Source: an uncultured Pelagibacteraceae bacterium (GTDB taxonomy: Bacteria; Pseudomonadota; Alphaproteobacteria; Pelagibacterales; Pelagibacteraceae). Taken from it: a DNA stretch of 64,000 nt. Each line of letters starts with the position of its first letter. The stretch's first letter is position 1. The notes beneath the pieces are model-generated. The model did no database searches. It was given only the letters and a program-made list of their open reading frames with translations, and was not told the DNA's origin. The translations under genes were made by a program, and so were the position numbers. Of this stretch, positions 32,245 to 44,374 are shown piece after piece. Where the stretch lies: contig CABZOF010000001.1 in NCBI GenBank assembly GCA_902527215.1, positions 226,001 through 290,000 of the forward strand, read 5' to 3'.

Positions 32245-33135
32245 TTATTTAAAATATTTATTTAAATTTTTCAAAATTTGATCAATTTCAAATAAAAAAA
32301 CTTTATTATTGGCAATAAATGTTAAATTTCTATTGCTGTTTATTTTAAAAAGATTTTTTTTATTAAATTTTTTTGTTACAATGTGTATTTTCAAATTTAT
32401 AACTAATTTACATCTTGTTTGAATTATTTGTGCAATATTCTTAAGTCTGAGATTTTTATAACTAATATTAAAGATTGAATTTTTAAAGAATTTTTTTTTA
32501 ATTACTGAATTAATCATATCAACGAATATTCGTGATGGTATATATGTTCTTTGAATAGAACCATTGTTAATGAAAATTCTTTTTTTTTTTAACGCAAGGA
32601 TACATAAATCATGAATTATATTATTTTTAATTTTTGTTATTTTTTCATATTTTTTAAATCCAAAAACATTTCCAATCCTTAAAATCGTAAACATGTTTTT
32701 ATAATTAATAAATTTTGTTTTGATTATTTTTTCTGACTCGAAGTGTGATTTTGAATACAAGTTTTTATAATTAATTTTTGAATTAATAGTAAGATTATTT
32801 TTTCCATAATCTTTATAAACTTGCATTGATGATATATAGATTAATTTAATATTATGTAATATACAAAGGTCACAGATAATTGAAGTTATTTGGTTTTTTT
32901 TTTCTATTAAATTTTTATTTCTTTTCAATTGATACTGGTTTGGTCCTGCAAAATGTAAGATAAAATCAACATCTTTCAAAATATTGGAATTTTTTTTTAA
33001 TGATGAATAATTGATATAGTTTATAGAGGTTTTTTTTCTTGAAAAAAAAATATATTTATTTTTTTTTATATTATTTTGACTTTTAATTAACGACGCTAAA
33101 TAACCTGTGCCCCCAAAAACACCAATTTTCGGCAT
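32245..33135 (-). CDS. NAD-dependent epimerase/reductase
   Basis: IGVFGGTGYLASLIKSQ, FILHFAGPNQYQ, LIYISSMQVYKDYG, LYSKSHFESEKII. Confidence 0.8.
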   Translation of the reverse strand: MPKIGVFGGTGYLASLIKSQNNIKKNKYIFFSRKKTSINYINYSSLKKNSNILKDVDFILHFAGPNQYQLKRNKNLIEKKNQITSIICDLCILHNIKLIYISSMQVYKDYGKNNLTINSKINYKNLYSKSHFESEKIIKTKFINYKNMFTILRIGNVFGFKKYEKITKIKNNIIHDLCILALKKKRIFINNGSIQRTYIPSRIFVDMINSVIKKKFFKNSIFNISYKNLRLKNIAQIIQTRCKLVINLKIHIVTKKFNKKNLFKINSNRNLTFIANNKVFLFEIDQILKNLNKYFK

Positions 33136-33830
33136 TATTTAAGCCAAGGTGATTTTTTATTTTTAATCATTTCCTCTAGTACCTTTTTATCCCTTAATGT
33201 ATCCATACAAAACCAAAAACCTCTATGTTTAAAAGCAGCCAAATTTTTTGTTTTGACAGCTTTTGACATTGGAGATCTTTCTAACATAACATTTTTGTCT
33301 CCAATAAATTTTAAAAATTCAGGCTCAACAACAAAAAACCCACCATTAATCCATCCTTTCTGTAACTGAGGTTTTTCTTCAAATTTTTTTACGATATTAT
33401 TATTGATCTCTAATTCACCGAAACGAGCTGGTGGATGTACAGCTGTCATAGTAATTTTTTTTTTATTTTTTTTATGAAATTTAAATAATTTATTTAGGTC
33501 AACGTTTGATAACCCATCACCATAAGTTAACATAAAAGTACTCTTTAACTCGTTTTTTAATTTTATTATTCTTTTACCCGTTAAGGATGAAATACCTGTA
33601 TTTATTACTCTAATTTTTACTAAATTATTTTTTTTTTTAAAATAATTTTTAATAACTGAATATTTGTATCCACCTGCTATTATAAAATCTTTAAAACCAT
33701 AACTTATATAATAATTTATAATATGTTCTAAAATTGGTTTTGATCCAATTCTAATCATTGGTTTTGGTATTGATTTTGTATACTCTGAAATTCTAGTACC
33801 TTTACCTCCAGCCAAAATTACACACTTCAT
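33135..33830 (-). CDS. rfbF: Glucose-1-phosphate cytidylyltransferase-like nucleotidyltransferase
   Basis: MKCVILAGGKGTRISEYTKSIPKPMIRIGSKPILEHIINYY, MLTYGDGLSNVDL, MTAVHPPARFGELEI, AAFKHRGFWFCMDTLRD. Confidence 0.92.
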   Translation of the reverse strand: MKCVILAGGKGTRISEYTKSIPKPMIRIGSKPILEHIINYYISYGFKDFIIAGGYKYSVIKNYFKKKNNLVKIRVINTGISSLTGKRIIKLKNELKSTFMLTYGDGLSNVDLNKLFKFHKKNKKKITMTAVHPPARFGELEINNNIVKKFEEKPQLQKGWINGGFFVVEPEFLKFIGDKNVMLERSPMSKAVKTKNLAAFKHRGFWFCMDTLRDKKVLEEMIKNKKSPWLK

Positions 33831-34249
33831 TCTATTAGTTCACTCCATTTATATACAATTTTATGTAAGTCAGTATTAGTCGCTTCATTTGGATCATGTT
33901 CGATATTAGATAAATTAAAAAGTATATTATTTTCCTTTATACCTCTAAAAGCCATCCATAATCCTGGTTTTACTGTAATTCTTTGATAATTATTTTGAGA
34001 TATTTTTATATTATAAAATTCTTTTGTATTTTCGTTATGAAAAACAATCTCTATTTCACCATTAATTACAATGAGATTAGAAATCATTTGTTTATGTTTT
34101 TTCCAACCTTTTATTTCTCTTTTTTTAATTAAAGAGAAATATACTTCACCAAATTCACTAAAACTGGAGTCGCTTTTTTTAATTGCTTTTAAAATTTCAC
34201 CTTTTGGATGGTGAATTTTTTCTAATGGTGTTAAAATTACTCCGTCCAT
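33827..34249 (-). CDS. dTDP-4-dehydrorhamnose 3,5-epimerase-like / cupin sugar epimerase
   Basis: DGVILTPLEKIHHPKGEILKAIKKSDSSFSEFGEVYFSLI...KGWKKHKQMISNLIVINGEIEIVF. Confidence 0.8.
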   Translation of the reverse strand: MDGVILTPLEKIHHPKGEILKAIKKSDSSFSEFGEVYFSLIKKREIKGWKKHKQMISNLIVINGEIEIVFHNENTKEFYNIKISQNNYQRITVKPGLWMAFRGIKENNILFNLSNIEHDPNEATNTDLHKIVYKWSELIE

Positions 34250-35337
34250 TTTAAACTTTTTGCTTTAGCTTTATTTTCATATTCTGTTATTTGATTTAAC
34301 GTTTTTTCAAGTATTTTTTTATTTTTCTTATAAAAGTCGAAATACCATTCACTTGTAAATTTGACAGTATCTTCATAATCTAAATTTGCTTTCCATTTTA
34401 AAAAGGAAAATGCTTTATCACAATTTAGCTTTAAAAGTTTAGCTTCATGAAAAATAGGATTATTGGTAATTCTGTAAGCTCTAAACTTATCTTCTACATT
34501 CCAGTATTTGCTAAGATCAACTATTAATTGCTCCACTGTAGGATTTTCTTTTGTATTTGGTCCAAAGTTGAATGCTTGTCCATTTAAATCATAATTTAAA
34601 GATAATTCTGAGGCTAAATGAAGATATCCACTCAAAGGTTCTAAAACATGCTGCCAAGGTCTTGTTGCATGGGGAGATCGTATCTCAGTAATTTTACCCT
34701 CACTCCAAGCTTTAATACAATCTACAACAACTCTATCATTTGCCCAGTCTCCTCCACCTATAACATTTCCAGCTCTAGCTACTGCTATTCTTAGATTATT
34801 ATTTTTAGATTTTATAAATGAGTGATAGAAAGATTTTATAATTAGTTCAGCTGCGCCTTTACTTCCGCTGTAAATATCCTTTCCTCCCAAAACATCATCT
34901 TCTTTATAACCACTTGCTTGTTCTATATTATCATAGGATTTATCACTAGTGATAATTATTGCAGTGCATTTATTATTTAGTTTTTTCATAGACTCTAAAA
35001 TATTTGCAGTACCCATAACATTTGATGATATAGTTTCGATAGGATCAGCGTAGGATTTCAAAACTAATGCCTGTGCTGCAAGATGAAAAATGAAATCAGG
35101 CTTCTCGTTAGAGATTATATCATTCATTTTTTTTAAATCTCTTATATCTTCTTTATAATATTTAATTTGATTTTCGAGTTTTAATTCCTCAAATATCGAT
35201 GGTTTTGTTGGTATATCCTTTGATATTCCAACAATGTTTGCCCCCAATTTTATCAACCAGATAGAAAGCCAGCTACCTTTAAATCCAGAATTTCCTGTAA
35301 TTAAAATTTTCTTTTTTTTATAAATCTCTTTAAACAT
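34237..35337 (-). CDS. rfbG: CDP-glucose 4,6-dehydratase
   Basis: KKILITGNSGFKGSWLSIWLIKLGANIVGIS, FHLAAQALVLKSYADPIET, ITSDKSYDN, RAGNVIGGGDWANDRVVVDCIKAW. Confidence 0.94.
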   Translation of the reverse strand: MFKEIYKKKKILITGNSGFKGSWLSIWLIKLGANIVGISKDIPTKPSIFEELKLENQIKYYKEDIRDLKKMNDIISNEKPDFIFHLAAQALVLKSYADPIETISSNVMGTANILESMKKLNNKCTAIIITSDKSYDNIEQASGYKEDDVLGGKDIYSGSKGAAELIIKSFYHSFIKSKNNNLRIAVARAGNVIGGGDWANDRVVVDCIKAWSEGKITEIRSPHATRPWQHVLEPLSGYLHLASELSLNYDLNGQAFNFGPNTKENPTVEQLIVDLSKYWNVEDKFRAYRITNNPIFHEAKLLKLNCDKAFSFLKWKANLDYEDTVKFTSEWYFDFYKKNKKILEKTLNQITEYENKAKAKSLKWTE

Positions 35338-35375: not shown

Positions 35376-36125
35376 TCATATGATTTTAGAGATCGCATTA
35401 TCTAATTCCTGAACAACATTTTTTGAAAGCTTTAAAACTGGCAACTTTAAATGTTGTCCATTCCAAATATCTGTATGTGAATTAATAAAATTCAATGTAT
35501 TAATTGCTGGGCTATCTAATAAATATCTTGAAAGTAGTTTAGATTTATTAAGATATTGAATAGAATTCACAAAATGTTTCATTACATTTTTTTTAATTTT
35601 TTTATATCTTATAATTTCATAATAAATATTTTCCATTAAAGTCATAGTTACATCTAAACCTGTTGGGATATTCATGTTGTCACTAAACTGTTCCCAATCT
35701 ACAAATAAAACCTCATTTTTGTCGTTAAACATAACATTTCCTACTAGTGATAAATCGCCATGAAATGGTGCAAATTGATATCCTTTATATTTGTCCCAAA
35801 TTTGGATATAATGATTGATAGTCAGATCTAAATATTTTTCTATCATAAGATAATTTAAACTAGGATTAACGTTAAAAAAACTTCTATTAATTTCTATTTT
35901 AATCCTATGATAAGTTTTAATTTTTTTTTCCAAAGTGTATTCAATCTTATTTTTACTAACACTATTGTACCATTCTATACCTTCGCACTCAGACATGATT
36001 GATTTAATTCCTTTTTCCGATGTTGATGCTTTAATAATACTTTTAGTTTCTAACGTTTTATCATCTTTTAATAACATTAAAAAATTTTCAGATCCATGTC
36101 TGTGAACTCCTTTAATATATTTCAC
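35376..36125 (-). CDS. APH/choline kinase-like phosphotransferase family protein
   Basis: FAPFHGDLSLVGNVMFNDKNEVLFVDWEQF resembles the HGDxxxxN...DWE kinase catalytic motif. Confidence 0.65.
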   Translation of the reverse strand: MKYIKGVHRHGSENFLMLLKDDKTLETKSIIKASTSEKGIKSIMSECEGIEWYNSVSKNKIEYTLEKKIKTYHRIKIEINRSFFNVNPSLNYLMIEKYLDLTINHYIQIWDKYKGYQFAPFHGDLSLVGNVMFNDKNEVLFVDWEQFSDNMNIPTGLDVTMTLMENIYYEIIRYKKIKKNVMKHFVNSIQYLNKSKLLSRYLLDSPAINTLNFINSHTDIWNGQHLKLPVLKLSKNVVQELDNAISKII

Positions 36126-37210
36126 TTTTTTGCAACAACTATTATGGCTGGACTGAGATTTTTAAATTTCAAATATTTCATTAAAAAAACTTCGAGATAT
36201 TTAAATACAAGTTTTTGTTTCCAAGTAACTATGTTTTTATCCTTGTAAGCTATGTATTGACTTATGCCCTCATTAGAGTTGGGGAAAATAAGTGAAGGAA
36301 AATGATACATTGGAAAACAACAATAATCATCGATTTTTTTAAATCCAGCTTCTCTCAAGAGGTCTTTTAGTTCAGAAAAAGAGTAAATGTAAGTTCTGTA
36401 ATCCTTTTTTCTAAAAATTTTAGAAATAACGTTTGATATTGATCTTGGTAAAAAAGTTGTAAATTTGAGATTTACATGTGGATCTGGTCTTCCTAATAAA
36501 TAGGCATAGTTAAGTTTATTTTCAATTGCTAGAAAGAGTTGACCTCCTGTATTGAGACTGTCATAAACCTTTTTTAAAAATTCAACCTGCATATCTCTTG
36601 GATGTTTAAGTAATTTTTTTTTAATTGAACTTTTAGTTTTAGAAACCTTTTTTTCGTAATATTCACTAACAATTACTTCAGATTTTTCTGGAATCCATTC
36701 TAGAACTCCATTTACAATAGCATAATCTGCTATATCCTTAAATTTTACCTCTCTGATATCATCTTGAACCAAATGAATATTTTCTAACCCTTCTTCTATT
36801 GAGCGTGTTTTTAAAAAATTTAAAGAGTCGTAGGTTTGATCTACAGCAATTACTTGATGACCTCTCTTTGCCATACCAACAGAAAGTACACCCCACATTG
36901 AACCATAATCTATGCAAACTCCACCTTTTTTGTGATCTAGAAGTTCCAATCCTGCCTCTCTTTTTGAAGAAAATATCATTTCTTCAAATTTAGGAATAAA
37001 TGATTTTACAGCAGTTTTACAATCCTTAGTCTCTAATAATTTAGAAAACTCATTATTTTTATCTTTGGATAAATTTGACCAATAACCAGAATTTCCAGAT
37101 GAAAAAATTCCATTTTCAGACTTAGAATAAATTTTATTAAGATATTGTTTAATATAATTATTTTTTTTTTCCATTATTAATTTTTTTAATTTCGATGATA
37201 GCTCTTTCAT
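36122..37210 (-). CDS. Class I SAM-dependent methyltransferase (alternative start MEKKNN at about 37174)
   Basis: GVCIDYGSMWGVLSVGMAKRGHQVIAVDQTYDSL, ADYAIVNGVLEWIPE, LNTGGQLFLAIENKLNYAYLLGRPDPH. Confidence 0.82.
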   Translation of the reverse strand: MKELSSKLKKLIMEKKNNYIKQYLNKIYSKSENGIFSSGNSGYWSNLSKDKNNEFSKLLETKDCKTAVKSFIPKFEEMIFSSKREAGLELLDHKKGGVCIDYGSMWGVLSVGMAKRGHQVIAVDQTYDSLNFLKTRSIEEGLENIHLVQDDIREVKFKDIADYAIVNGVLEWIPEKSEVIVSEYYEKKVSKTKSSIKKKLLKHPRDMQVEFLKKVYDSLNTGGQLFLAIENKLNYAYLLGRPDPHVNLKFTTFLPRSISNVISKIFRKKDYRTYIYSFSELKDLLREAGFKKIDDYCCFPMYHFPSLIFPNSNEGISQYIAYKDKNIVTWKQKLVFKYLEVFLMKYLKFKNLSPAIIVVAKK

Positions 37211-38030
37211 CCCAGGCTGAATTTATACCACTGTAAGTCAATAAAAAAAAACGAAATAAATGTTTGATGTACCAAATTAAAAACAAATAAAATGAAAAGT
37301 TATAATTTAAGTAAATATCAATGATCATAGTAAATAAAATAAAATCTACTGTTCTAGCTCTATCATCCATAAACCCTTTAAAATAATACATCCATTTGGG
37401 ATATTTTATTTTATTATTTTTTTTGTTGTGTTTTCTATTAGATTTTTCATCTGCATTACCTATATTATGTTTTGTAAAAATATCTTTAATTTTATTTTTT
37501 CTCAATTCATCTAGAATTAAATTTTTTCCCAGCAGAATAGGTATTCCAAAGTATAAAAAAGGAATTGATACTATTAGATAAATTAAAACATCATAACCTG
37601 TTTGATTTAAAACAAAAAAACCCAATCCAACATTAAAACCAATGGAGTTTAAATGTGCTCCATAAGAATCTAAAATATGACCCTTTAAAGTTGTTTTATA
37701 TTTTATTCTAGCTAAATAACCATCACTCCAATCAAAAATACTTTTGTTGAAAAAAATAATAATTCCTGCAATATTGTAGTTTATATTTGGTATCGTAAGA
37801 AAAACACATCCAATAATACCACACAAACCATAGACAATCGTAACCATGTTTGGTGTAACACGAGATTTTAATAGAAAAAAAATAAGTATAACGCTACTAT
37901 ACATATAATATCTCGCTTTAAAATATGTGTATGGGTTTTTTTTTACGTCATTCAAGTATGGAAATCTTTTTAATTGGCGTTTAAAAATAAATTTTTTAAT
38001 ATCTTTTATCTTAAGAATTTTATAATTCAT
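37158..38030 (-). CDS. CDP-alcohol phosphatidyltransferase family protein
   Basis: DWSDGYLARIKYKTTLKGHILDSYGAH matches D(x2)DG(x2)AR(x8)G(x3)D but has Ala at the last Asp position. Confidence 0.75.
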   Translation of the reverse strand: MNYKILKIKDIKKFIFKRQLKRFPYLNDVKKNPYTYFKARYYMYSSVILIFFLLKSRVTPNMVTIVYGLCGIIGCVFLTIPNINYNIAGIIIFFNKSIFDWSDGYLARIKYKTTLKGHILDSYGAHLNSIGFNVGLGFFVLNQTGYDVLIYLIVSIPFLYFGIPILLGKNLILDELRKNKIKDIFTKHNIGNADEKSNRKHNKKNNKIKYPKWMYYFKGFMDDRARTVDFILFTMIIDIYLNYNFSFYLFLIWYIKHLFRFFLLTYSGINSAWDERAIIEIKKINNGKKK

Positions 38031-38177
38031 TAATCAGGTCTAATTACTATGAGTTATTATTTAAAGTAAATAAAATAAATTTTTATTTAGAGCAATATTT
38101 CTTTTATATTAGTCTATATTAGATTATTTTGTATTAAAAAATTTTCAATTTAGATTAATTATAATTATATATTGTAT

Positions 38178-39482
38178 ATGAAGAAAAATAAAAAAGTTTA
38201 TGTAGGTTTATCAGCTGATATCTTGCACAAAGGACACATAAATATTCTAAAAACTGCTAACTCCTATGGAGATGTCTATGTTGGGCTTTTAACAGATAAA
38301 GCGATAGCAAGTTACAAAAATATTCCTTATTTAAATTATGAAAAAAGAAAAATAGTTTTAGAAAATATAAAATATGTTAAAAAGGTAATTCCTCAAAGAA
38401 CCCTTGATTATGTAGAAAATCTAAATTTAATTAAACCAGATTTTGTTGTACATGGTGATGACTGGAAATCTGGGGTACAAAAAAAAACAAGAAAAAGAGT
38501 AATTCAAACATTAAAAATTTGGTCGGGTAAACTTATAGAACCAAAATATACAAAAAATATTTCATCCACCTCAATTAAAAAAGAATTGGAAAATATAATT
38601 GCTTCACCAGAAAATAGAGTCTCAAGACTCAAACGATTAATGAAATCAAAAAATATTGTAAGAATTTTAGAGTCTCATAATTCACTTACAGGATTAATAA
38701 TTGAAAATTTAAGTATTAAAGAAAATAAAAAAAAAATTGAATTCGATGGGATGTGGTCTTCAAGTTTAACTGACTCTGCAACTAAAGGAAAGCCAGACAA
38801 TTCATCAGTTGATTTTTCATCAAGAATAGCATCCCTTAATGAAATGATGGATGTGACCTCAAAACCATTAGTTTTTGATGCAGATAATGGAGGACAATTA
38901 GAGCATTTATCTTTTTTAGTTAGATCCTTAGAGAGGTCAGGTGCCTCAGCAATAATCATGGAGGACAAAGTGGGTCTTAAGAAAAATTCATTATTTAAAA
39001 ACCAAGCTGATGCTAAACAAGATAAACCTCACATATTTGCAAATAAAATAAAAAAAATATGTAATTCAAGACAGCAAAGTGATTTTATGGTTATAGCGAG
39101 AATTGAGAGTTTTATTTTAGGAAAAGGGTTGAATGATGCGCTTAAAAGAGCTGAAATTTATTCAAAAGCAGGTGCAGATGCGATTCTTATACATAGTAAA
39201 GAAAAAACCCCAGCAGAAATTTTTTTATTTGCAAAAAAATTTAGAAAAAGCAAAAATTTTATTCCTTTGGTTTCTGTTCCATCCACTTATTCTAAGGTTT
39301 ATGAAAATGATTTAATTAAAAATGGTTTCAAATTAGTAATTTATGCCAATCAATTGTTAAGAGCAGCATACCCGGCAATGCAAAATACAGCAAAAACAAT
39401 TTTAAAAAATAGAAGGGCTTTTGAAGCAGATAAAAAAATCATACCAATTAAGGAAATAATAAGTTTAATCAAAAATGATTAA
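38178..39482 (+). CDS. Fusion of N-terminal cytidylyltransferase domain with phosphoenolpyruvate mutase
   Basis: N-terminal [22 protein letters not shown] (nucleotidyltransferase HxGH-type) and C-terminal PEP mutase EDK(X5)NS motif [30 protein letters not shown] at 38178 preferred to the listed TTG at 38172. Confidence 0.92.
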
Positions 39483-40578
39483 CGTAAGTTCTTTAATAAA
39501 ATTATTAAATAAAAATAAAAGTGATTTTTTTACAGGAGTGCCTGACAGTGTTTTAAAGGAGTTGTCAGCGGCTTTACAAAATCAAAGTAAAAAAAAACAT
39601 ATTATTGCAACTAGTGAAGGTTCAGCTATTTCAATAGGTATTGGTCATTACTTATCAACAAAAAAAGTGCCTGTTATTTATATGCAAAACTCAGGTTTAT
39701 CTAATGCATTAAATCCTTTAATTTCCATAGCTCATAAAAAAGTCTATTCTATACCACTTATTTTAATAATTGGATGGAGAGGGTCTCCAAATATTAAAAA
39801 AGATGAACCTCAGCACAATGTAAAAGGTAAAATTACTGAAAAAATTTTAAAACTATTAAATATAAAATATACAATTATAAGATCAGTACCTGATTTAAAA
39901 AAATTTGAAAAGCAGATTAAGTTTGCAAAAAAAAATAATTCTATTGTAGCTTGTTTGATTGAACAGAAAACTTTAGAAAAAAGTAAAACAAAAAGTAAAA
40001 AAAAAGATTTTTATAATTTAAACAAAGAAATATTTTTAAAAACTTTAATAAATAGTTTGAAAAAAAATACAAAAATTATCTCTAGTACCGGTTATAACTC
40101 GAGAGAATTAATGTATATTAGAGAAAAATATAATATTAAAAATAGCAAAGATTTTTACATGGTTGGTGGTATGGGCCATACTTCATCTGTGGCACTAGGA
40201 TATTCATTATCAACAAAACATAAAACCATTTGTATAGATGGAGATGGCTCACTTTTAATGCATCTTGGATCAATTAAAACTTTAGGGACTTTTGCTAATG
40301 AAAATTTGAAATATATATTGATGAATAATAATGCTCATGATTCTGTGGGTGGCCAAAGAACATACGCAAATAAAATTAATTTTAATAAATTATCTAAAAG
40401 TCTTGGTTTTAAAAAGTTTCATATCATTTCAAATAAGAAAAATTTAAAAGAAAAAATTAATAAATTTCTTAGTGAGAGAAATATAAGTTTTTTAGAAGTA
40501 AAGGTAGCAAATAATAAAATAAATGAACTTCCAAGACCATCAAATTTAATTGAAATTAAAAATGAATTTATGAAATAA
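39475..40578 (+). CDS. Phosphonopyruvate decarboxylase (TPP-dependent)
   Basis: [87 protein letters not shown]. Confidence 0.93.
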
Positions 40579-41685
40579 ATGGTGAACTCGACTAAAGATA
40601 TAAAAAAATTTATAAATGATAAAGGTTTCAAAAAAATTTTTATCCTATGTGGAGAAAAATCTTTTATAATTTCTGGCGCTGAAGATATTTTTAAAAAAAT
40701 ACTAAAAAGTAAAGAAATTAAATTATTTTATAAAAAATCAAAGATACCAATTTTGGATGAATTAATTAATATTATTAAAAATATTAAAAATTTTAAACCA
40801 GATTTAATTTTAGCAATAGGGGGTGGTGCAGTAATAGATTATGCTAAAATAGCAAATGTTGTTGATGTAAGACCTGACCTAGCAAAACTAATTGTTAATT
40901 ACTCTTACCCTTTCAAAAAAAAATTTACCAAACTTGCAGTCATTCCTACAACGGCAGGTTCTGGGGCTGAAGTTACATCGAATGCTGTAATTTACGTAAA
41001 TGGTATTAAGCATTCTTTTGAAAATGAATTACTGATCCCTGATAATTTTTTTCTTATTCCAGAGTTTTTAATTTCAGCTCCTAATAGTATAAAAGCCCCA
41101 GCAGGTTTTGACGCTATTGCTCAAGCATTGGAATCTTTAGTTTCCAAAAAATCAAATGATATAAGCGTTGATTTTGCTATTAAATCTTTAAAAATTTCAA
41201 CTCAAAGTTTTATTTCATTTTTAGAGAGACCAGACATGAAAAATGCTACAGAAATGAGTATAGCTGCAAATCTTGCTGGTAAAGCAATAAACATATCTAA
41301 AACAACTGTCCCACATGCAGTGTCTTATCCATTTACTTCATTATTCAATATAAGCCACGGACATGCAGTTAGTTTATTTTTTGAAAAATTTTTCAAATTC
41401 AATTACGATAATTTAGAAAAATCTGAGACTAATTTTAATTTAAAAAAAAGATATGATCTAATATTTGATTTATTTGGTGTAAATAATATAGACAGTTTCT
41501 GTTCGAAAATAACTTTAATAAAAAAAAAATCTTTTCTTGAGGATAATTTATTGAAAATGAATATTAATGTTAACAATGACATTGATAAAATTGTAAAAGG
41601 TATAAATTTATTAAGATTAGGAAATAATCCTATAAATATAAATGAAAATAGTATTGTAAAATTAATTTTAAATAAAAATGATTGA
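40579..41685 (+). CDS. Iron-containing alcohol dehydrogenase, probable phosphonoacetaldehyde reductase
   Basis: ILAIGGGAVIDYAKI, VIPTTAGSGAEVTSNAVIY, GFDAIAQALES, PHAVSYPFTSLFNISHGHAVSL; position directly after phosphonopyruvate decarboxylase. Confidence 0.85.
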   Translation: MVNSTKDIKKFINDKGFKKIFILCGEKSFIISGAEDIFKKILKSKEIKLFYKKSKIPILDELINIIKNIKNFKPDLILAIGGGAVIDYAKIANVVDVRPDLAKLIVNYSYPFKKKFTKLAVIPTTAGSGAEVTSNAVIYVNGIKHSFENELLIPDNFFLIPEFLISAPNSIKAPAGFDAIAQALESLVSKKSNDISVDFAIKSLKISTQSFISFLERPDMKNATEMSIAANLAGKAINISKTTVPHAVSYPFTSLFNISHGHAVSLFFEKFFKFNYDNLEKSETNFNLKKRYDLIFDLFGVNNIDSFCSKITLIKKKSFLEDNLLKMNINVNNDIDKIVKGINLLRLGNNPININENSIVKLILNKND

Positions 41686-42581
41686 TAAAAATTTTTGTAT
41701 TCATATTAAAATTCCTGATATTTTTTATGCTTATGTATAATATCTATAGAAAAACTATTTTTAGCTTTTTACTTTTTTGCTTTGTTTCAACATTAATATT
41801 AAATGTGTTCAGCATTTACTATAGCCCATTAAATTATTATGATAACTTTTATAAGAATAATGTGATTACAAAAAGTGAAGGACTTGTTCCAGGTTATCAC
41901 ACAAGACTTCGTGACTTAGATCAACTTGAAATTTTAATCAATACCCAGCAGCAAAATTTCAATGTCGAAAAAACAACTTCAATAATTTATGAGTCTTTAA
42001 TTCATGGAGGAAGAGATATTTTGATTTTTGAAAATTGGTTTTTATGGTTATTATCTAATTTTTATAAACCTTTAAAAAAAACACAGAATGTTAAAAAAAT
42101 TGTGGCAAGCGGTATGGCAAATTGCAACGAGGCTAATGGTGTTTTAAATAAGATAGCTTCAATAAACAATGTGCCTGCGAGATTTATAAGTTTAGATGGT
42201 CATATAATCAGTGAACTTAAAATAAATAATAAATGGATTATGGTAGATGCAGATTTTGGAATAGTTTTTCCATTTGGATATGATAAAATTTTTGATGGTG
42301 ATATTTTTTATGTCAAAGAAACTCTTAAAAATTTATTAATTGAGCGCGGTTTTAGTTTAGATACAAAAAAGTTAGGCGAAAGAACTGTAAAAGAATATCA
42401 GAATCTTTTATTATCTACTGAAAACAATACTATTCATGAAATTGGTGCTGCAATTAGTCCTCGTCTTAAAATAGTAGAAATTTTTGGGGAAATAATGAAT
42501 TGGGGGTTGTCATTTTTGTTTGGTATTACACTGATAATATTTTCTAATAAGAAAAAAAAACTTTATAAAAACAAACACTAA
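41682..42581 (+). CDS. Membrane-anchored transglutaminase-like cysteine protein
   Basis: N-terminal TMs, VASGMANCNEANGVLNKIASINNVPARFISLDGHIISELKINNKWIMVDADFG (Cys/His/Asp arrangement), C-terminal TM; TTG start. Confidence 0.6.
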   Translation: MIKIFVFILKFLIFFMLMYNIYRKTIFSFLLFCFVSTLILNVFSIYYSPLNYYDNFYKNNVITKSEGLVPGYHTRLRDLDQLEILINTQQQNFNVEKTTSIIYESLIHGGRDILIFENWFLWLLSNFYKPLKKTQNVKKIVASGMANCNEANGVLNKIASINNVPARFISLDGHIISELKINNKWIMVDADFGIVFPFGYDKIFDGDIFYVKETLKNLLIERGFSLDTKKLGERTVKEYQNLLLSTENNTIHEIGAAISPRLKIVEIFGEIMNWGLSFLFGITLIIFSNKKKKLYKNKH

Positions 42582-44374
42582 TAATTATTATAATTTTTGA
42601 AAAAAGAGATTAAAGATTTAGTTGGATTTTTGGAGCTTTTTGCATATTTGTTAGAAAAAAAAACTTTAGCATCCTGAACTTTTTTTTGAGACCACCATTG
42701 ATCCACATTATCCCAAACCTCATTTACTTTTTTTGAAATTGATTTTGATGAAAAATATACTAATCCTGCATCAACTAATATCTGGTAATCGGACTTTACT
42801 GAATCACGTAAATGGTCAAAACCATTTTGCCAGAAAACCATTGTGGGAATATTTAGAGAAAGATTTTCTAAAAAACCTGTAGTGTCATAGCTATGTATTA
42901 CTAGCCTACTGTCGGCTATTAATTTTTCAAGTCTTGTTTTGCCATCATCTATTATAAGTGTTTTGTCAAAATCGTGCCATCTAGAAATTTCATTTAAGTT
43001 TATGTTAGCATTTGATGCGCTTAATCGAATTAGAAGATTTTTCTTAGGATCTTGAGATAACTCTCTTACAAAATTTTTCTGGTCTTCAAAATAATCAGTA
43101 AATTCATCATGAGTGTCCCAAGGCATCCTCCTTATAAATTGAGGTCTTTCGACAAGTAAAAGTTTACCTTTGTTGTTGTATTTGCTTTTTACTCCACTTG
43201 TTTTAAAAATATACATCGGAATATATTTTGATAATTTACTTTCCCAGCCCCATGTAAGAAATTTATCAGCAGTTTGCTCTTCTACTCTTGGAAAAAAATA
43301 CCTTCCAGTAAAATAATTATTTCCATGTTGGCCAACATAATATTTAGAACCATTTTCTGTTTTAATAGCTGTATATAACTTAAAGATTTCATCAGTACCA
43401 AAGTTATTACTGGTAAAAATAAATTTAGGTTTTTTTGGCCAAGGTTGTTTATTTACTATTTTCTTTAATTCTTCAAATCCTTCTAAATGACAGACTGGGA
43501 GCAATTCAAATAAAAGATTACGCAAAACATTTTCTAAATCATCTTCTGATTTTTTTAATAGTTTTTTAGTCAATCTTTTACGCAAAGATTGATTAGGTTT
43601 TGCATTGATATTAACTTCAATTTTTTTCCAAAATTGTGGTAATTGACCTAAGTTAATTTCTAACTTTGCTAATTGTTTTGAATTAATATAAGTATTTATT
43701 AGAAAAGCATCTTTATTCCTGACTAATTTCTCAGCTATTTTTTTATAACCTTGGTAAATATAATTTTTAATATTTTTCTTATTAACGTGTTTTTTATTTG
43801 TATCGTTAGTTTCTAAAACCTTATATGAATACACTTCATTATTATCATCAATAAAGTTAATGGGAATTTTATTATTATTTATTAAAGTTAAAATTCTACC
43901 AATTAATATATTATTCCATTTAGGATTATCAAAAAAGTAAGTAAAACCTGCTCTTAAATGAGGTATTGCTAGCGCAGAATAATTTGAATTATATACTGTA
44001 GTTCCTGAAATTTCCTCTAATTGCAAACATTGCTTTAAAGTATTAATTCGATTAAGTAACAATTGCAAGGTACTCCTAAGCCAGGTACCTACTATTATTT
44101 TCCAAAATCTATTTTTATGATTGGTCTGAAAATTTTCATTTAAAATTTTACAAATTTCTGGAAGTATTTTTTGCTCGAGATATTTTACCTTTAAATCATC
44201 TCTATCTTTAATATTTCTTTCTAAACCATAAGGTTTTGCAACAATAGCATCCATATTTTTCCAAATATGTTTCCTTTTATACAAACAACACCATTTTCCT
44301 AAAAAAATTACTGGACGATCAAACTTCCAGGTTATCTCATTTTCGGTTGTGATTAGAAATCTTTTTTTTTTCAA
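42578..44374 (-). CDS. LIC12162-family putative transferase
   Basis: FLITTENEITWKFDRPVIFLGKWCCLYKR, KYYVGQHGNNYFTGRY, SRLVIHSYDTTGFLENLSLNIPTMVFW. Confidence 0.75.
   Translation of the reverse strand: MKKKRFLITTENEITWKFDRPVIFLGKWCCLYKRKHIWKNMDAIVAKPYGLERNIKDRDDLKVKYLEQKILPEICKILNENFQTNHKNRFWKIIVGTWLRSTLQLLLNRINTLKQCLQLEEISGTTVYNSNYSALAIPHLRAGFTYFFDNPKWNNILIGRILTLINNNKIPINFIDDNNEVYSYKVLETNDTNKKHVNKKNIKNYIYQGYKKIAEKLVRNKDAFLINTYINSKQLAKLEINLGQLPQFWKKIEVNINAKPNQSLRKRLTKKLLKKSEDDLENVLRNLLFELLPVCHLEGFEELKKIVNKQPWPKKPKFIFTSNNFGTDEIFKLYTAIKTENGSKYYVGQHGNNYFTGRYFFPRVEEQTADKFLTWGWESKLSKYIPMYIFKTSGVKSKYNNKGKLLLVERPQFIRRMPWDTHDEFTDYFEDQKNFVRELSQDPKKNLLIRLSASNANINLNEISRWHDFDKTLIIDDGKTRLEKLIADSRLVIHSYDTTGFLENLSLNIPTMVFWQNGFDHLRDSVKSDYQILVDAGLVYFSSKSISKKVNEVWDNVDQWWSQKKVQDAKVFFSNKYAKSSKNPTKSLISFFKNYNNY

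Follow-up and report, generated by a model that had tools for sequence, protein, structure and literature searches.

A divergent phosphonate locus in a Pelagibacteraceae genome encodes a CDP-alcohol phosphotransferase-fold protein lacking the fourth signature aspartate: a probable surface-phosphonate transfer and tailoring module

We analyzed a 64,000-nucleotide stretch of DNA from an uncultured Pelagibacteraceae bacterium (contig CABZOF010000001.1, positions 226,001 to 290,000; hereafter, "the window"), in which two sets of genes diverge from a very AT-rich intergenic region of 147 bp (38031..38177). On the minus strand, at 38030-35376, lies a trio that encodes a CDP-alcohol phosphotransferase-fold membrane protein (CDP-AP; 37158..38030), a class I SAM-dependent methyltransferase (MT; 36122..37210), and an APH/choline-kinase-like phosphotransferase (35376..36125). 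The initial annotation had placed these three reading frames opposite a phosphonate operon, with overlapping ends and a gap of about 147 bp, and all of this is borne out: the operon starts with an ATG at 38178, MT and the APH-like gene overlap by 4 bp, and CDP-AP and MT overlap by 53 bp when the first ATG of MT is used. The latter overlap shrinks to about 20 bp if MT starts where its homologue in the SAR11 cell AG-435-B08 does; the first ATG probably precedes the real start by some 11 codons. A promoter scan of the 147-bp gap returned no sigma-70-like consensus and nothing above shuffled sequences.

The plus-strand operon begins with a fusion of a cytidylyltransferase (CyTase) domain and a PEP mutase (PepM) (38178..39482, plus strand), continues with a phosphonopyruvate decarboxylase (PPD; 39475..40578, plus; TIGR03297, 370 bits against a cut-off of 312.5), and proceeds to an Fe-dependent alcohol dehydrogenase (Fe-ADH; 40579..41685, plus; PF00465/PF25137), a putative phosphonoacetaldehyde reductase. 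The PepM part scores 369 bits against TIGR02320 (cut-off 319.55), the fusion carries the motif HKGH and a ten-residue stretch of the PepM pattern EDKxxxxxNS, and both the PepM and the PPD expected of the 2-hydroxyethylphosphonate (HEP) branch are present. The CyTase domain (PF01467, E=2.7e-14) finds its best PDB match (E=5.6e-51) in chain 5x3d, an entry named phosphoenolpyruvate phosphomutase that we take to be the cytidylyltransferase domain of Fom1. The fosfomycin enzyme Fom1 makes CMP-2-hydroxyethylphosphonate (PMC6697681). It is the Fe-ADH, and not an aminoethylphosphonate (AEP) transaminase, that comes after PPD, and no AEP transaminase homologue was found in the compared loci of the window and of AG-435-B08 (L067). 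Membership of the dehydrogenase in the Fe-ADH family is certain, and its score against the phosphonate-specific model TIGR03405 is 118 bits, below the cut-off of 423.7. The predicted product of the operon is CMP-2-hydroxyethylphosphonate (CMP-HEP), with HEP as the likely phosphonate. The gene after Fe-ADH (41682-42581) has a weak transglutaminase-core match (E=0.065) and a likely membrane anchor in its product, and was not found in the other loci compared.

Among the trio, MT is a class I SAM methyltransferase by its match to PF13847 (34.2 bits, cut-off 27, E=2.4e-8). The APH-like protein of the window has no Pfam match and is tentatively assigned through its homologues, one of which, in a genome of another class of Pseudomonadota (G419), matches PF01636 weakly (E=0.006, below cut-off), and through the kinase residues K31, E45, H121-G-D123, N129, and D142, which are invariant in all four APH-like homologues. 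A PDB search with the APH-like profile gave no match, and an AF2 model built from two sequences reached a pLDDT of 39; a single-sequence match to the repeat protein Tako8 was discarded as a repeat-propeller artefact.

The assignment of the CDP-AP draws on profile, fold, and tree. The protein matches PF01066 with 39.5 bits (cut-off 22, E=9.9e-10), its AF2 model has a pLDDT of 76, and the top 28 Foldseek matches are all CDP-APs (probability 0.87-1.00). The canonical signature of these enzymes is D1xxD2G1xxAR...G2xxxD3xxxD4, with D4 as the catalytic base; the window protein reads D100-x2-D103-G-x2-A-R-x8-G-H-x-L-D121-x3-A125 and carries DDRARTVD near its C-terminus. D1 to D3 and the glycines are thus in place, but the presumed catalytic base is replaced by Ala125, so we do not class the protein as a canonical CDP-AP.

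The protein belongs to a nine-member clade (support 97/93) in which D4 is Ala, Ser, or Gly in every member, D1, D2, D3, G1, A, and G2 are retained, and most members share a C-terminal DDRARSxD motif (DGGSRYTD in L060). D4 is kept in the housekeeping CDP-APs of the window genome, in Pcs-like copies, and in the CDP-APs of AEP loci from Mycetohabitans, Burkholderia, and Roseomonas. Two CDP-APs of pepM-carrying genomes that fall outside the clade lack it as well (Gly in L055, His in L065). Purifying selection acts on the CDP-AP, with dN/dS of 0.10-0.23 among close CDP-AP pairs and between the window and L067. Judging from these sequences, either another residue would act as the base or the acceptor would already be ionised. 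In a SUP05 locus (L072, 8216-12448), a D4-less CDP-AP has a B12-binding radical SAM protein on one side and a Rieske/beta-lactamase-fold protein on the other.

The minus-strand run extends beyond the trio, which the initial annotation did not note. Only 38 bp separate the APH-like gene from a CDP-glucose 4,6-dehydratase (34237..35337, minus; TIGR02622, 457 bits, over cut-off), followed by a cupin resembling sugar 3,5-epimerases (33827..34249, minus; homologues in the L067 and G113 loci, no NCBIfam match at E<=1e-10), a glucose-1-phosphate cytidylyltransferase-like gene (33135..33830, minus; TIGR02623, 256 bits, below the cut-off of 300), an epimerase-like gene, and a GT2 glycosyltransferase. 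The downstream neighbour of the phosphonate operon is a LIC12162-family transferase (42578..44374, minus; TIGR04331, 342 bits), a family also found in L067, L115, and L116. As a whole, the locus is set in a surface-glycan island that contains nonulosonate genes along with this LIC12162-family transferase.

We examined the recurrence of the gene set in 297 SAR11 genomes of the same order, 25 of which carry the fusion, and that of the CDP-AP in 84,980 species genomes. Relatives of the CDP-AP occur in 6 of the 297 SAR11 genomes, five of which carry the fusion, whereas single-sequence searches for MT and the APH-like protein in the same 297 returned the window's own genome only (1/297). The species-wide CDP-AP scan recovered the whole six-gene divergent arrangement, in identical order, in AG-435-B08 (identities to the window of 58% for CDP-AP, 71% for MT, and 56% for APH), which brings the number of SAR11 genomes in which the full trio was seen to two. 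In two further SAR11 genomes a CDP-AP relative lies 2 bp after the fusion (L070) or immediately downstream of PPD (L061 and L071). One of these loci, L061 (G209:C13, 9605-13101), carries an AEP-transaminase-like gene, a separate CyTase, and LicD on the fusion strand, with PPD, CDP-AP, and CDP-glucose genes opposite, and is possibly a SAR11 locus with two separate outlets for phosphonate. Given the AEP transaminase, CyTase, and LicD on that strand, the CDP-AP of G209 may not be the phosphonate transferase there.

When an MT profile was run against 190 Pseudomonadota, two further genomes, both of one genus outside SAR11, gave full-length matches, and in both the MT sits beside an APH-like gene and a CDP-AP. 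In G419 (L116), homologues of all parts are gathered in about 10 kb but arranged differently, APH-MT (minus), CDP-AP (plus), FeADH-CyTase-PPD-PepM (minus), with LIC12162 and glucose-1-phosphate cytidylyltransferase genes adjoining and nonulosonate genes further off; in G479 the order APH-MT...CDP-AP is the same up to the contig end. The 4-bp MT/APH overlap is retained in L115 and L116. As the gene order differs and the MT identity between the window and G419/G479 is only 37-38%, shared function is the simplest reading of this recurrence. Viral contigs searched for CDP-AP, MT, and APH, and plasmid and phage collections searched for CDP-AP and MT, yielded no homologues.

A D4-less CDP-AP is present in 4 of 25 fusion genomes versus 0 of 272 others in the SAR11 sample (Fisher p=4e-5), and an accessory (third) PF01066 gene in 9 of 25 fusion genomes versus 7 of 85 without the fusion (p=0.0017); both tests assume independent genomes, an assumption that related genomes violate. 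All seven accessory genes of fusion-less genomes belong to a single Pcs-like family whose D4 motif is intact, and the idea that SAR11 genomes carry accessory CDP-APs in general was dropped on that ground. Two D4-less proteins were seen without an accompanying pepM: the genome of the SUP05 clade member has no TIGR02320 (PEP mutase) match, and in G427 the gene is on a 9.5-kb contig without a pepM homologue on that contig.

The initial annotation had read the six genes as one functional unit and proposed a co-occurrence analysis, to be judged by whether the trio occurs mainly away from pepM and whether pepM clusters of close relatives lack it. On the former count, pepM accompanies each trio whose contig extends far enough. 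On the latter the proposed refutation applies to the letter, as 24 of the 25 SAR11 fusion genomes lack the MT and APH-like genes, and pepM therefore does not predict the trio. The reading thus finds partial support: the set is one that recurs as six genes in L067 and G419 but whose MT and kinase are rare among SAR11 carriers of the fusion.

We favor the reading, with a probability of roughly 60%, that the locus is a module that transfers HEP to a surface glycan or lipid and tailors the product. PepM, PPD, and Fe-ADH would make HEP, the CyTase domain would activate it to CMP-HEP, and the CDP-AP-fold protein would pass HEP from CMP-HEP to a membrane acceptor on the cytoplasmic side (candidates are a lipid, a lipid phosphate, and a sugar linked to a lipid), releasing CMP. 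The target of MT and the APH-like kinase would be the phosphonate or, with equal likelihood, the sugar or alcohol acceptor, and the adjoining operon would supply CDP-6-deoxyhexose and glycosyltransferases for the surface glycan. Because the trio recurs with phosphonate genes in a distant family, it probably attaches and decorates the phosphonate at the cell surface. The idea of one functional unit gains from the adjacency of CDP-AP relatives to the fusion or PPD in several loci. As to the suggestion that a CDP-activated phosphonate alcohol is a natural substrate of the CDP-AP, the enzyme, having lost D4, is not an ordinary member of its family, and transfer from CMP-phosphonate is for this reason a deduction. 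The accompanying claim that MT methylates the phosphonate turns out to be a guess: with a CDP-deoxysugar operon adjoining, MT could equally well act on a sugar. Methyltransferases of differing families stand beside pepM-linked CDP-APs (class I in the window, TylF-type in L070, a second class I in G419), as do 2-oxoglutarate oxygenases (PhyH in L070, AspH-type in L055), and this recurrence suggests frequent modification of either the group that is transferred or its acceptor.

The trio could instead belong to the CDP-6-deoxyhexose operon, in which case the donor for the CDP-AP would derive from a CDP-sugar or be another CDP compound, or the protein would act on a lipid, MT and the kinase would modify the sugar, and closeness to pepM would reflect a shared glycan island. 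The genes for CDP-glucose 4,6-dehydratase, cupin, and glucose-1-phosphate cytidylyltransferase do follow the trio on the same strand, in L067 likewise directly after it; G209 has PPD, CDP-AP, CDP-glucose dehydratase, and glucose-1-phosphate cytidylyltransferase in one run; the dehydratase is present in all four SAR11 genomes of the sample with a D4-less CDP-AP; and the TylF-type enzyme beside a related CDP-AP (L070) is of a sugar methyltransferase type. However, the dehydratase is common in SAR11 (96 of 297 genomes), and 92 of those 96 have no D4-less CDP-AP, so the CDP-glucose genes were dropped as an explanation of the CDP-AP. Every main-clade D4-less CDP-AP in the SAR11 sample is in a genome with the pepM fusion, and in L116 the trio is still with pepM while no strong homologue of the dehydratase was seen. 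We regard this account as rather unlikely. Mere chance neighbourhood in a hypervariable surface-polysaccharide island, with a trio unrelated to phosphonate, would fit the fast turnover of such islands in SAR11 and the finding of the full trio in only two SAR11 genomes, but the set is re-assembled in another order in another class, with the 4-bp MT/APH overlap kept in both, and the recurrence in G419 and G479 makes coincidence very improbable. That recurrence would count for less if the entire island had been transferred recently, but with an MT identity of only 37-38% such an event is disfavoured.

A different objection concerns the CDP-AP itself, which might be catalytically dead or serve as, e.g., a membrane anchor or binding partner, leaving transfer to the LIC12162-family protein or a glycosyltransferase. 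In a studied PIP synthase D4 is near-essential, with D4 to Asn nearly abolishing activity (PMC4634129), and D4 is lost in all nine clade members. The retention of D1, D2, D3, G1, A, and G2, the conservation of DDRARSxD in most members, and purifying selection speak against a dead protein, and kept metal ligands are unexpected in a pure pseudo-enzyme; we therefore think this explanation improbable. A more speculative extension of the favored transfer-and-tailoring reading, which we hold to be doubtful, is that the D4-less proteins form a branch of CDP-APs with a distinct catalysis, specialised for CMP-phosphonates and relying on an ionised acceptor or on a new base supplied by DDRARSxD. The ionised acceptor might be, e.g., a polyprenyl or sugar phosphate, perhaps produced by the neighbouring kinase, which would give a phosphate-phosphonate anhydride carrier.

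Activation of phosphonates with CTP is widespread, and in the Pnt pathway a Ppm-fused nucleotidyltransferase (PntC) likewise makes a CMP conjugate before transfer to the cell surface; that pathway points to LicD-like phosphotransferases or glycosyltransferases, whereas the candidate here is a D4-less CDP-AP (PMC6697681). Fom1 has the same domain order as the window fusion, but its context differs, as the window neighbours include no recognised fosfomycin tailoring genes and the locus lies in a surface-glycan island. The CDP-APs of known structure (AF2299 4o6m/4o6n, PIP synthases, CEPT1) share the fold and the D1-D3, G, A, R, and G residues; the window protein differs in having Ala at D4 (Ser or Gly in relatives) and the extra conserved C-terminal DDRARSxD. 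Closer in logic are the AEP-lipid loci of the order pepM-ppd-AEPT-cytidylyltransferase-CDP-alcohol phosphatidyltransferase, drawn before in Nostoc and Burkholderia (PMC5987646). These, together with AEP loci on plasmids of Mycetohabitans, Roseomonas, and Burkholderia, likewise place a CDP-AP in one locus with the genes for C-P bond formation and CTP activation, and their CDP-APs share Gly-His at the G2 position with the D4-less group. They differ in using an AEP transaminase and in having CDP-APs that keep D4 and form a separate clade, and the notion that the SAR11 proteins are simply AEP-lipid CDP-APs was abandoned on account of the separate clades. Three plasmid records (L128, L130, L131) carry AEP-type clusters with CDP-APs in Mycetohabitans, Roseomonas, and Agrobacterium; in the first two, the CDP-APs have Gly-His at G2 in common with the SAR11 clade.

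The pepM clusters of SAR11 and Prochlorococcus have been described in glycan islands, and so match the window in organism group and setting; the main text of that report makes no mention of a CDP-alcohol transferase (PMC8931226). The remark that no description of this exact combination was known stands in part: in the main texts of the open literature we found no HEP-type locus with a D4-less CDP-AP, MT, and APH-like gene, but the donor/CDP-AP logic was already known from AEP loci. What is new is a CDP-AP from a supported nine-member clade, all without D4, within a HEP-type locus.

SAR11 bacteria are among the most abundant on Earth and a major producer of phosphonates, and we know of no described step that fixes phosphonate to SAR11 cell material. 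Surveys attribute much of the organic phosphorus in the sea to HEP and methylphosphonate esters on polysaccharide (PMC9381506). The locus offers a concrete candidate for the fixing step in the HEP branch, and its CDP-AP a natural test of whether such an enzyme works without its presumed catalytic base.

Several further variants were seen around the fusion. Seven SAR11 genomes (L040, L049, L050, L051, L054, L058, L062) have an APS-kinase-like P-loop kinase of about 175 aa near it, and in L043, L044, L045, and L047 a second, stand-alone cytidylyltransferase of about 147 aa, like a duplicated CyTase domain, lies directly beside it. L055 (G223:C1, 11774-14288) has a divergent trio by its fusion-PPD pair, made up of an aspartyl beta-hydroxylase-like gene, a 266-aa gene that has no Pfam match, and the CDP-AP with Gly at D4, which falls outside the main clade. 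Finally, two short faecal records labelled "Bacteriophage sp." (MT837901.1 and MT836947.1), possibly bacterial DNA, encode nearly full-length CyTase-PepM fusions that are 46-49% identical.
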